Below are positions 19,948 to 41,844 of a DNA stretch of 43,565 bases, piece after piece. The number at the start of each line of letters is the position of its first letter. Position 1 is the stretch's first letter. Location: assembly GCA_016191685.1 (NCBI GenBank), contig JACPVT010000054.1, forward strand, positions 1 through 43,565. Reading direction: 5' to 3'. Source of the DNA: Rhodospirillales bacterium (GTDB lineage: Bacteria; Pseudomonadota; Alphaproteobacteria; Reyranellales; Reyranellaceae). The translations under genes and the position numbers were made by a program. The notes below the pieces were generated by a model. It saw nothing but the letters and a program-made list of their open reading frames with translations. It did not search any database and had not been told where the DNA came from.

Positions 19948-20779
19948 ATGGACTTGAAACTTGCCGGTCGCACCGTGCTGATCACCGGCGGCAGCCGCGG
20001 CATCGGCTTCGCCTTCGGAAACAAGAGGTTTTACACCAGTTTTTCCAGCAAGTAAATTTTCCCAATTTTGTTTAACCCCAATGCCAAGTGCCGAAGGCTG
20101 CGCCGTCCACATCGCCTCACGGTCCAAGGAGTCGCTCGAGGCGGCGCGGGAGAAAATCCGCGCCCGCCACAATGTGCCGGTCGAGATCCATCCGGCGGAC
20201 TTTTCCAAGGGTGACACGGCCCGTAGCGTCGTCGACGCCGTGGGCCATCCCGACATCCTCGTGAACAACGCCGGCGCCATCCCGCGCGGCGACATCTTCG
20301 GCATGACCGAGCCGAAATGGCGCGAGGCGTGGGAACTGAAGGTGTTCGGCTACGTCAATGCCACGCGCGCCATGCTGGAGAAGTTCTATGCCCGCAAGAA
20401 AGGCGTGGTGGTGAACATCATCGGGCTTGCCGGCGAGAGCTTCAACTACGACTACGTCGCCGGCACCATGGGCAATGCAGGCCTGATGGCCTTCACCCGC
20501 GCCGTGGGCTCGAGGAGTGTCGACCATGGCGTGCGCGTGGTGGCGATCAATCCACCGGCCACCCGCACCGATCGCATGCTGACCTTGCTGCGCGGTCAGG
20601 CCGAGCAGCAGTTCGGCGATCCTGAGCGCTGGCCCGAACTCACCAGGCACATGCCGTTCGGCCGCGCCGCCGAACCTGAGGAGGTCGCCGATCTCGCGGT
20701 GTTCCTGGCGTCGGACCGCGCCAGCTACATCAGTGGCGTGGTGATGACCCTCGACGGCGGTCAGGCTGCGCGGCACTAG
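19948..20779 (+). pseudogene. Short-chain dehydrogenase/reductase interrupted by an AT-rich island
   Basis: N-terminal MDLKLAGRTVLITGGSRGIGFAF (frame of 19948) and C-terminal AEGCAVHIASRSKESLEAAREKI...YISGVVMTLDGGQAARH (frame of 20081) are one SDR split by nt 20017-20089, which carries an in-frame TAA (20053-20055) and a frame change. Confidence 0.85.
20017..20089. other. AT-rich 73-nt island inside the SDR gene
   Basis: 27 G/C of 73 nt by hand count; abrupt contrast with flanks; bounded by perfect 8-bp inverted repeat GCCTTCGG (20011-20018) / CCGAAGGC (20091-20098). Confidence 0.8.
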
Positions 20780-20791
20780 CCGCGCACAGGA

Positions 20792-20932
20792 CTACTTGTA
20801 CTTGCTGGCAGCGGCCTTGGCGCCCGGGTTGGTATGCGACGCCGCGAAGGGCGAGGTCGAGACGACCTTCTTGGACTTGTCCTGCTTGGGCTTCTTCTTT
20901 TCGCGATTGCTACGGAGCTGACCTTTGGCCAT
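20792..20932 (-). CDS. Small basic protein (46 aa), MAKGQLRSNREKKKPK type
   Basis: ATG-to-TAG ORF below the track cut-off: MAKGQLRSNREKKKPKQDKSKKVVSTSPFAASHTNPGAKAAASKYK. Style matches short Lys-rich proteins seen in Proteobacteria. Confidence 0.68.
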   Translation of the reverse strand: MAKGQLRSNREKKKPKQDKSKKVVSTSPFAASHTNPGAKAAASKYK

Positions 20933-20979
20933 GTGTGTTCCTTCCCTGAACGCGTGCGCGGCGGGACCTTAGGCGTATT

Positions 20980-21312
20980 TCATCGGCGTGTACGATCTGT
21001 CTCGCGGGGCCATTGTTCATCCGTCGAAACGATGCCGCTCGGGCCGGAAACGCCGGGCAGGGGGCGATGGCGCGGGACCGGCCCGATGATGGGCGCCTCG
21101 ATCCTGGCTTCGATCTTCGGCTGGGCAGCCAGACGCTCGGCAGGTGCATCGGACAACCCAAGCCGGCCGCCGGCCGCGATCGCCCCGACGCCCACCAGAA
21201 GAAGGCCGACGCAGGCGCCGGGCCAATAGCCCCAAGCGGCGCTGTGCCGCCAGCAGGGCATGATGGCGATGCCGATCACCACCAACAGGAGCGTAAACCC
21301 CAAAATGAGCAT
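20980..21312 (-). CDS. Small membrane protein with Pro-rich tail
   Basis: MLILGFTLLLVVIGIAIMPCWRHSAAWGYWPGACVGLLLVGVGAIAAGGRLGLSD; resembles DUF3309-like small hydrophobic proteins at the N-terminus. Confidence 0.6.
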   Translation of the reverse strand: MLILGFTLLLVVIGIAIMPCWRHSAAWGYWPGACVGLLLVGVGAIAAGGRLGLSDAPAERLAAQPKIEARIEAPIIGPVPRHRPLPGVSGPSGIVSTDEQWPRETDRTRR

Positions 21313-21472
21313 CCGGCCTCCGCCATCTCCCTTTCGCGGGAAAACGGCGTCGTCGCCGGGAGGTTCCGCCTTGATTTCGCCTTTACCGGTCTGCCCGGCA
21401 GAGGCGTGCCGGTTCATCCACAGTGCAGCGCATGACGCCACGGGCCGGTGCGGCGATAGTATCGGCAAAACA

Positions 21473-23134
21473 ATGACCGACGCCCTCTCGACCGCCTACG
21501 CGCTGCTGCATTCCGTCTTCGGCTTCAACGAGTTCCGCCCCGGCCAGGAGGAAATCGTGCGCGCCGTGCTGGCCGGCGAGAATGTGCTCACCGTCATGCC
21601 GACCGGCAGCGGCAAGTCGCTGTGCTACCAGCTCCCCGCCCTGGTCCGGCCGGGGCTGACGCTCGTGGTGTCGCCGCTGATCGCCCTGATGCGTGACCAG
21701 GTTCGTGCCCTGGCAGCCGCCGGCGTTGCGGCCGGCAGCCTCAATTCCAGCAACGAGCCAGGCGAGACGGCCCGGGTGATGGACCTGCTGCGAAAGCGCG
21801 AGCTTCGCCTGCTCTATGTCGCGCCCGAGCGGCTGGCGCGGCCCGACACGGTCGAGATGCTGGCCGAGGCCAACGTTACCTTGATGGCGATCGACGAGGC
21901 CCATTGCGTCTCGCAATGGGGCCACGACTTCCGACCCGAGTACCTCACCTTGGGCAACGTCGCGCGCCAGATCGGCGGCCGGCTGCAGACCCTGGCGCTG
22001 ACGGCAACGGCCGATGCGCCGACGCGCGGCGACATTGTCGAGAAGCTGTTTCCCTCGGTGCCGCCGCGTGTCTTCGTCCGGAGCTTCGACCGGCCGAACC
22101 TGCGGCTCGCATTTCAGACCAAGGAGCGCTCTTCGCGTCAGGTCCTGGCGTTCGTGCGCGCCCACGAGGGCGAGAGCGGAATCGTCTATTGTGCCTCGCG
22201 CCGCAAGGTCGAGGAGTTGTCGGCCACGCTCGCCGAGGCCGGCGTGCGCGCGCTGCCCTATCATGCCGGCCTCGACAAGCGCGTGCGCGACGCCAACCAG
22301 GATTCGTTCCAGCAGGACGACGGCGTGGTGATGACCGCCACCGTCGCCTTCGGCATGGGCATCGACAAGCCAGACGTGCGCTTCGTCTGTCATGCCGACC
22401 TGCCGTCCAACGTCGAAGCCTATTATCAGGAGATCGGCCGCGCCGGCCGCGACGGGCTGCCGGCCGACACGCTGACGCTCTATGGCCTGGGCGACATGCA
22501 GCTCCGCCGCCTGCAGATCGAACAGAGCGACTCCTCCGACGAGCGCAAACGCATCGAGCGCCAGCGGCTGGGGGCGCTGCTGGCCCTGGCCGAGGCGCCG
22601 CGCTGTCGCCGCCAGACCCTGCTCGCCTACTTCGGCGAGCAATCCGAGCCCTGCGGCAATTGCGATCTCTGCGTCGAGGGCGTCGAGCGCTTCGATGGCA
22701 CCATCGATGCCCAGAAGGCGATGTCGGCCATCCTGCGCACCGGCGAACGCTTCGGTGTGGAATGCCGCGCACGCCGTCCTCGATCTTCGGGAAGTCATTC
22801 GCGGCGGCGTCCTTGGCCACCTTCTTGCCGGCCTCGCGGGCGCGGATGGCGTTGGCGAAATTCTTGTAGATGTTGGCAAAGGCTTCGAGGTACGGCAGCG
22901 ATCGTGGGCGACGCCGACACGGCCCTGCTCGATGCCCTGAAGGCGCTGCGTACCAAACTGGCGCGGACCCAGAACGTGCCCGCCTATGTCGTCTTCTCCG
23001 ATCGGACGCTTGCCGAGCTCGCCTCGCATCGGCCTGCCAACCCAGGCGCCATGCGCGAGATCCATGGTATCGGCGACGCCAAGCTCGAACGCTATGGGGC
23101 GGCGTTCCTCGAGGTCATTCGGACAAACGCCTAG
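21473..23134 (+). CDS. recQ: ATP-dependent DNA helicase RecQ with abnormal internal segment
   Basis: FGFNEFRPGQEEIVRAVLAGENVLTVMPTGSGKSLCYQLPAL, DEAHCVSQWGHDFRPEY, YYQEIGRAGRDGLP, CGNCDLC, C-terminal HRDC-like LARTQNVPAYVVFSDRTLAELA...EIHGIGDAKLERYGAAFLEVI. RQC-region sequence is missing (see 22761-22892). Confidence 0.85.
   Translation: MTDALSTAYALLHSVFGFNEFRPGQEEIVRAVLAGENVLTVMPTGSGKSLCYQLPALVRPGLTLVVSPLIALMRDQVRALAAAGVAAGSLNSSNEPGETARVMDLLRKRELRLLYVAPERLARPDTVEMLAEANVTLMAIDEAHCVSQWGHDFRPEYLTLGNVARQIGGRLQTLALTATADAPTRGDIVEKLFPSVPPRVFVRSFDRPNLRLAFQTKERSSRQVLAFVRAHEGESGIVYCASRRKVEELSATLAEAGVRALPYHAGLDKRVRDANQDSFQQDDGVVMTATVAFGMGIDKPDVRFVCHADLPSNVEAYYQEIGRAGRDGLPADTLTLYGLGDMQLRRLQIEQSDSSDERKRIERQRLGALLALAEAPRCRRQTLLAYFGEQSEPCGNCDLCVEGVERFDGTIDAQKAMSAILRTGERFGVECRARRPRSSGSHSRRRPWPPSCRPRGRGWRWRNSCRCWQRLRGTAAIVGDADTALLDALKALRTKLARTQNVPAYVVFSDRTLAELASHRPANPGAMREIHGIGDAKLERYGAAFLEVIRTNA
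22761..22892 (-). pseudogene. Antisense fragment resembling the C-terminus of a Gfo/Idh/MocA-family oxidoreductase, inside recQ
   Basis: Minus-strand reading YLEAFANIYKNFANAIRAREAGKKVAKDAAANDFPKIEDGVRGI; the plus-strand frame here is Arg/Trp-rich nonsense (CRARRPRSSGSHSRRRPWPPSCRPRGRGWRWRNSC). Confidence 0.72.
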
Positions 23135-23146
23135 GTTCCGGCGACG

Positions 23147-23840
23147 TCATTCGCCCGACGGTTCGGGGTTTTCGAACGGCGTGCCGGCCTTCAGGATTCG
23201 ATAGCGGCCATCCTGGATCTCGGCCGCGGTCACGACTCCCGTGCGGGCGCTACCGCCGTCGAGACCGAGGCGGTCGCCTTCGAACAGGTGCGGATCGTCC
23301 ATGCCGCTGATCGCCTTGTGCTTGTCGGGCGGTGTGTGACCGTGCACCACGAGTGTGCCGCCGAAACCCTGCTTCCAGTCGAGGAAGCCGTGGTTGATCC
23401 AGGCCCAGCGTGCCTCGGTGAAGATCAGCCACGGCCGCGCCAGGAACTCGTCGGGGTCGGCATGCGGGTCGAGACCGCCATGGACGAACAGCGTATTGCC
23501 GAGCCGCACATGTGAGCGCATGGCCTGCAGCCGGTGCACGACGTCTTCGCCCAGCGCCTCCTTGAGCAGCGCCTGGTCGGCGTGCGTCGCCGCATGGCCC
23601 GCCCGCGCCGCCATCTGGTCGAGCAGCTTCTGGCCGCCCATGCGCTTCGCGATTGATCAGGTCGCCGAGGTAGATCAGTCGTCGCTTGCCCTTGGCCTCG
23701 TGGGCCAGACCCTGGATCGACTGCAGAAGGACGGCCAGTTCGGCTGCGCAGCCATGGATGTCGCCGATGGCGAAGACGGTCTCGCCCTTGAGCGCAAACG
23801 GTGCGGGCTTCCAGGCGGAAATCTTGACGGGGAGGCTCAT
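23147..23840 (-). pseudogene. PPP-family serine/threonine phosphatase, frameshifted/internally deleted
   Basis: N-terminal half MSLPVKISAWKPAPFALKGETVFAIGDIHGCAAELAVLLQS...RRLIYLGDLINR in one frame; C-terminal half AKRMGGQKLLDQM...VRLGNTLFVHGGLDPHADP...GGTLVVHGHTPP in another. The frame changes near 23640-23660 and no GNHE motif is visible. Confidence 0.82.
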
Positions 23841-23855
23841 GGCCGAATGGTATCG

Positions 23856-24083
23856 CTATCCCGCGCGCCGCTCCACCGGCACGGGCGCGCAACGCCCGAA
23901 TTCCACCTTCGCCGCGCGGGCATAGCCACTGTCGGTCAGCTCCTTCAGCCGGGCGATGGCGGCACCGATATCGTCTTTGGCCGCGACCAGAGTCACGACC
24001 GCGCCCACGACCCTGAGGCCATAGGTCGTGATCATCGCCACCAGCACGCTTGCGGCACCGTTCCACTGGGCTCCGAGGTCCAT
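23856..24083 (-). CDS. Short ORF with MscS-like N-terminal start; possibly truncated or chimeric
   Basis: MDLGAQWNGAASVLVAMITTYGLRVVGAVVTLVAAKDDIGAAIARLKELTDSGYARAAKVEFGRCAPVPVERRAG (75 aa). First about 35 aa look like an MscS TM1 region; the remainder does not. Confidence 0.42.
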   Translation of the reverse strand: MDLGAQWNGAASVLVAMITTYGLRVVGAVVTLVAAKDDIGAAIARLKELTDSGYARAAKVEFGRCAPVPVERRAG

Positions 24084-41767: not shown

Positions 41768-41844
41768 GCCTCAGATGTAGCCGGGACGCCGCGGCCTGAG
41801 AAGGCGCTCGTACCGCTCGCCCGTGTAACACCGTCGCGGCTGGC

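Follow-up and report, generated by a model that had tools for sequence, protein, structure and literature searches.

Clustered gene lesions in a draft Reyranellaceae genome are probably local assembly errors

Introduction

In a draft genome of a Rhodospirillales bacterium (GCA_016191685.1) four neighbouring genes, an SDR, recQ, a PPP-type phosphatase and an MscS-like gene, appear damaged within about 4 kb (positions 19948-24083), and the question raised by this locus is whether the damage belongs to the living organism or to the draft. The window, i.e. the whole stretch of DNA that was analysed (43,565 nucleotides), is contig C376 of this draft (here G000), which comprises 3.8 Mb in 390 contigs and is 74.9% complete; the organism probably came from freshwater and the draft from a metagenome. 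A run of 55 N bases at L075 (G000:C65) 18445 indicates that scaffold joins are present in the draft, and rpoB was not found in it. The window was compared with a set of 36 genomes of the same genus, several of which are colinear with it across 19948-24083, whilst elsewhere in the draft five long stretches were compared with relatives (four of them with at least two) and further contigs with the relative G032 alone.

Results

The features of the interval are as follows.

19948-20779, plus strand: broken SDR gene (adh_short_C2; Pfam PF13561), split into a 35-aa N-terminal frame (19948-20055) and a C-terminal ORF (20081-20779); intact 257-aa ORF in G032
20018-20089, minus strand: AT-rich foreign insert, 72 bp replacing 14 bp, whose antisense strand reads ALGIGVKQNWENLLAGKTGVKPLVSE, the N-terminus of a FabF-type beta-ketoacyl-ACP synthase
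21473-23134, plus strand: chimeric recQ (TIGR01389) with an open frame, the RQC domain mostly missing (3-28 of 114) and HRDC complete
22763-22891, minus strand: foreign insert in recQ, 129 bp replacing 297 bp, antisense C-terminus of a Gfo/Idh/MocA oxidoreductase, freshwater Verrucomicrobia-like
23147-23840, minus strand: frameshifted PPP-type metallophosphatase (ORFs 23147-23641 and 23250-23840); intact 288-aa ORF in G004
23647/23648, no strand: breakpoint of a clean 158-bp deletion in the phosphatase, junction homology 0 bp
23856-24083, minus strand: 75-aa MscS-like remnant with two in-frame internal deletions relative to the intact 267-aa gene that lies beside the phosphatase in G004

The SDR gene starts with an ATG at 19948 and its reading frame closes after 35 aa. 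The AT-rich island that had been noticed here in the sequence is indeed an insert, with 72 bp (20018-20089) standing in the place of the 14-18 bp found in all seven relatives that cover the site, none of which carries it. Searches with its minus strand returned only ketoacyl synthases or their near kin, with weak matches (best E values of approximately 0.003-0.04), and an exact 23-mer of the insert had no match in GTDB genomes or IMG/VR, so that the donor is known only as FabF-like.

At the recQ site (22763-22891) the 129 bp of the draft stand against 297-301 bp in 7/7 relatives, and the part lost is the RQC domain, of which 26 of 114 positions are left. The reverse complement of the insert, YLEAFANIYKNFANAIRAREAGKKVAKDAAANDFPKIEDGVRG, is a C-terminal piece of a Gfo/Idh/MocA protein, closest at the amino acid level (91%) to an uncultured Verrucomicrobia bacterium from Lake Erken and at the nucleotide level (91.6%) to freshwater Verrucomicrobia drafts. 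With this Verrucomicrobia donor sequence the junctions could be set, showing approximately 1 bp of homology each. The antisense, foreign nature of the segment was thus as originally proposed, but recQ is not interrupted by it: the net length change is divisible by three, and an open frame of 624 aa is retained. Upstream of recQ, at window positions 21000-21400, conservation is low (56-81% to relatives) and a small membrane protein may be encoded on the minus strand.

The two inserts, 2.7 kb apart, have different and unrelated foreign sources. No second good copy of either, ectopic or inverted copies included, was found in the draft, and Pfam gave no match with the two insert peptides, which are too short; searches of NCBIfam, PDB and plasmid sequences provided their identities. 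No further foreign insert was recognised in the aligned parts of the other contigs compared. Of all the lesions, these two inserts and the short distance between them are the least well explained.

The phosphatase proved to be frameshifted as predicted, with 158 bp missing at 23647/23648. This deletion is clean against six of the seven covering relatives (the seventh aligns slightly differently) and its net effect is a frameshift. Identity to the closest relatives is 74-79% in the N-part of the phosphatase (window 23648-23870) and 85-89% in the C-part. The MscS-like ORF, described before as truncated, is shortened, but both its start and its stop are kept and the loss consists of the two in-frame internal deletions. 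The closest relatives, G032 and G023, lack this gene at the corresponding position, and the remnant may therefore be a genuine product of gene decay.

The SDR, recQ and phosphatase sites have the intact form in 7/7 relatives, making these three lesions unique to the draft. Ratios of omega for the SDR 3' part, the recQ 3' part and the phosphatase C-part (against G032 and G019) were 0.03-0.15, the same as for intact neighbouring genes. Such strong purifying selection on the flanks means that all lesions are very young if real, and it is expected if they are errors. Around the interval the genes do read as intact, as had been stated, in the approximately 30 kb of the window that can be compared with G032 and G019, but this does not hold genome-wide, since sharp in-gene deletions occur on other contigs. 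Further along the window (41807-41819), approximately 2.1 kb present in G032 and G019 are absent, probably an ordinary difference in gene content.

On the other contigs of the draft we found approximately eight sharp in-gene deletions in approximately 190 kb, all in genes that relatives have in intact form, and among the lesions measured junction homology was 0-2 bp. With the exception of rpsA, the gene names below are our own reading of the translations.

L074 (G000:C121) 17502: rpsA (ribosomal protein S1), clean frameshifting deletion of 32 bp, junction homology 1 bp
L074 (G000:C121) 10410: molybdenum hydroxylase, deletion of 72 bp
L076 (G000:C150) 1321: DUF4864-like gene, deletion of 49 bp
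L071 (G000:C230) 2196 and 13363: autotransporter and PAS kinase, deletions of approximately 73 and 142 bp
L222 (G000:C12) 2540: ATP-grasp-like protein, deletion of 61 bp (against G032 only)
L080 (G000:C176) 13709: flavodoxin-like reductase, deletion of 237 bp (against G032 only)
L214 (G000:C3) 7842: isocitrate-lyase-like gene, deletion of 377 bp (against G032 only)

The only copy of rpsA detected in the draft is broken by a frameshift in S1 domain 4, whilst the gene is intact in all seven relatives tested; these have one full-length copy each, and only G018 (4% contamination) adds a partial match. A second copy could still lie in the missing quarter of the genome. E. coli tolerates the loss of S1 domains 5-6, grows extremely slowly when domains 4-6 are missing and does not survive the loss of domains 3-6 (PMC3858243). 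The notion that the broken rpsA would be lethal is weakened accordingly, as E. coli without S1 domains 4-6 still grows; since that growth is extremely slow, however, a natural population carrying this allele would seem very unlikely, if not strictly impossible. In the ribosomal spc/alpha operon (contig C366) no lesion was found in the ribosomal genes, and adk is intact.

Over approximately 107 kb each, in-gene deletions of this kind numbered zero in G032 against approximately eight in our draft, and there was none in 62 kb of G023. In the fragmented draft G018, three sharp deletions of 66-237 bp were found in 37 kb, at least one of them within a gene (L120 (G018:C113) 4461 and 5394; L121 (G018:C324) 14180), and G000 is thus not the only genome affected. 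Apparent events of 62-109 bp at corresponding sites in G019 were rejected as deletions, being N gaps. In this small sample, the deletion class is commoner in the fragmented drafts (G000 and G018) than in the better assemblies (G032 and G023).

Against a background of approximately eight in-gene events in approximately 220 kb, the three events seen in 4 kb compare with approximately 0.15 expected, giving by our own arithmetic a Poisson P of approximately 5e-4, or approximately 0.03 once the number of 4-kb blocks is allowed for. A strictly local hot spot is not supported, the same class of deletion occurring on other contigs; the interval 19948-24083 is nonetheless denser than average.

Discussion

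The SDR, recQ and phosphatase lesions probably arose as errors of local assembly (or of the library) in this fragmented draft. Assembly error is favoured over biology because the same type of break also hits rpsA elsewhere in the genome, and this is the strongest single argument for an artefact, albeit one limited by the rpsA lesion being implausible rather than strictly lethal. Of the two origins first proposed for the cluster, decay or rearrangement on the one hand and an assembly or amplification artefact on the other, the latter is thus the better supported, the same class of loss recurring elsewhere in the draft and in G018 and being absent from the better assemblies. The form suggested for it, a chimera of the MDA type with inverted segments, is not supported. 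MDA chimeras typically join nearby sequence, often inverted. The present lesions resemble them as chimeric joins with deleted sequence, whereas the inserts are foreign rather than inverted local sequence, have no other good copy in the draft and join at 0-2 bp.

Under assembly error, coverage or reads would fail locally and the assembler would join true flanks over the missing stretch, as with the 158 bp of the phosphatase. At two of the joins the gap would have been filled by scraps of DNA from other community members, namely the Verrucomicrobia-like oxidoreductase piece and the AT-rich FabF-like piece. A local dip in coverage would account for the clustering in 4 kb. De Bruijn joins normally need overlaps, and the junctions of 0-2 bp, which do not fit plain k-mer overlap, count against an artefact; an extra step therefore has to be assumed, and we propose that chimeric reads at contig ends, followed by forced joining, could have provided it. 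It is also unusual for simple ligation chimeras to carry an insert between two true flanks, and the occurrence of two foreign inserts 2.7 kb apart, with none recognised in the other contigs compared, likewise counts against this reading.

Local assembly errors that are not supported by reads are known to corrupt protein-coding genes in metagenome-assembled genomes, above all in those assembled with IDBA-UD (PMC7111523). The lesions described here are alike in being short stretches in otherwise correct contigs that corrupt coding genes and are scattered over a fragmented draft. They differ in that foreign scraps lie between true flanks, a less usual form. For the joins described here, we infer that reads would not support them.

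The main biological alternative, which we consider unlikely, is a real substitution of short patches by environmental DNA, either through double illegitimate recombination resembling SPDIR or through capture of filler DNA at double-strand breaks during NHEJ, with the clean deletions arising in the same single, recent burst. The anatomy of the two inserts fits this well: each has true flanks on both sides, host DNA has been lost, junction homology is 0-2 bp and the donors are bacteria of a type to be expected in the same lake. SPDIR has been described in the literature (Harms et al., 2016, as cited in PMC7192050 and PMC8116780). As summarised in papers citing the 2016 PNAS study, it resembles the present case in exchanging a piece of host DNA for a short heterologous segment, with minimal homology at the junctions. 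Here a short foreign segment likewise replaces host DNA (72 for 14 bp and 129 for 297 bp), with approximately 1 bp of homology at each recQ junction, whilst the SDR junctions cannot be placed exactly without the donor. Set against SPDIR as so summarised, however, the inserts of 72 and 129 bp are accompanied by clean deletions of 32-377 bp genome-wide, one of them in rpsA, and this makes a biological cause less likely. Similarly, filler capture by NHEJ (Ku/LigD) in alphaproteobacteria would share joins that are blunt or almost so, along with deletions and filler of foreign origin, but the rate of events and the hit in rpsA fit poorly with a viable lineage. A real substitution also leaves unexplained why the same class of event frameshifts rpsA and why fragmented drafts show many such events and better assemblies none, and there is no sign of relaxed selection. 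That the window shows us a natural alphaproteobacterium, probably from freshwater, several of whose genes were recently rewritten within 4 kb by a burst of short-patch illegitimate recombination with environmental DNA of unrelated lake bacteria, the RQC domain of RecQ being replaced in frame, is quite unlikely. Should it be real, it would directly document short-patch substitution by foreign DNA in a natural setting.

There is only a slim chance that ordinary gene decay, with a dispensable block of this lineage inactivated by one independent deletion after another, produced the cluster. The MscS-like remnant does resemble a gene already lost in sister lineages, and in-frame deletions occur as well, but the three main genes are intact in all covered relatives, their flanks with omega at 0.03-0.15 bear no mark of relaxed selection, recQ and rpsA are not typical targets of decay, and a deletion brings in no Verrucomicrobia DNA. 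A chimera of strains, with 23648 to approximately 24136 (phosphatase N-terminus and MscS remnant) derived from another congener present in the sample and more distantly related, has scarcely any chance of being correct. It draws on the drop in identity to the closest relatives from the C-part (85-89%) to the N-part (74-79%), a weak hint, and on the absence of MscS at this place in those relatives; but conservation of the N-part is lower between the relatives as well (77-85% in the closest group), and the drop therefore does not settle the matter.

With local assembly error as the preferred reading, the SDR, recQ and phosphatase genes are most likely intact in the living organism, as they are in its relatives. 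If the lesions are indeed artefacts, the single representative drafts in species-level collections can contain, without a single N, a broken gene approximately every 20 kb. Genes such as rpsA and recQ would then falsely look mutated and scraps of other phyla would appear within genes, so that surveys of pseudogenes, gene loss and horizontal transfer would be misled.
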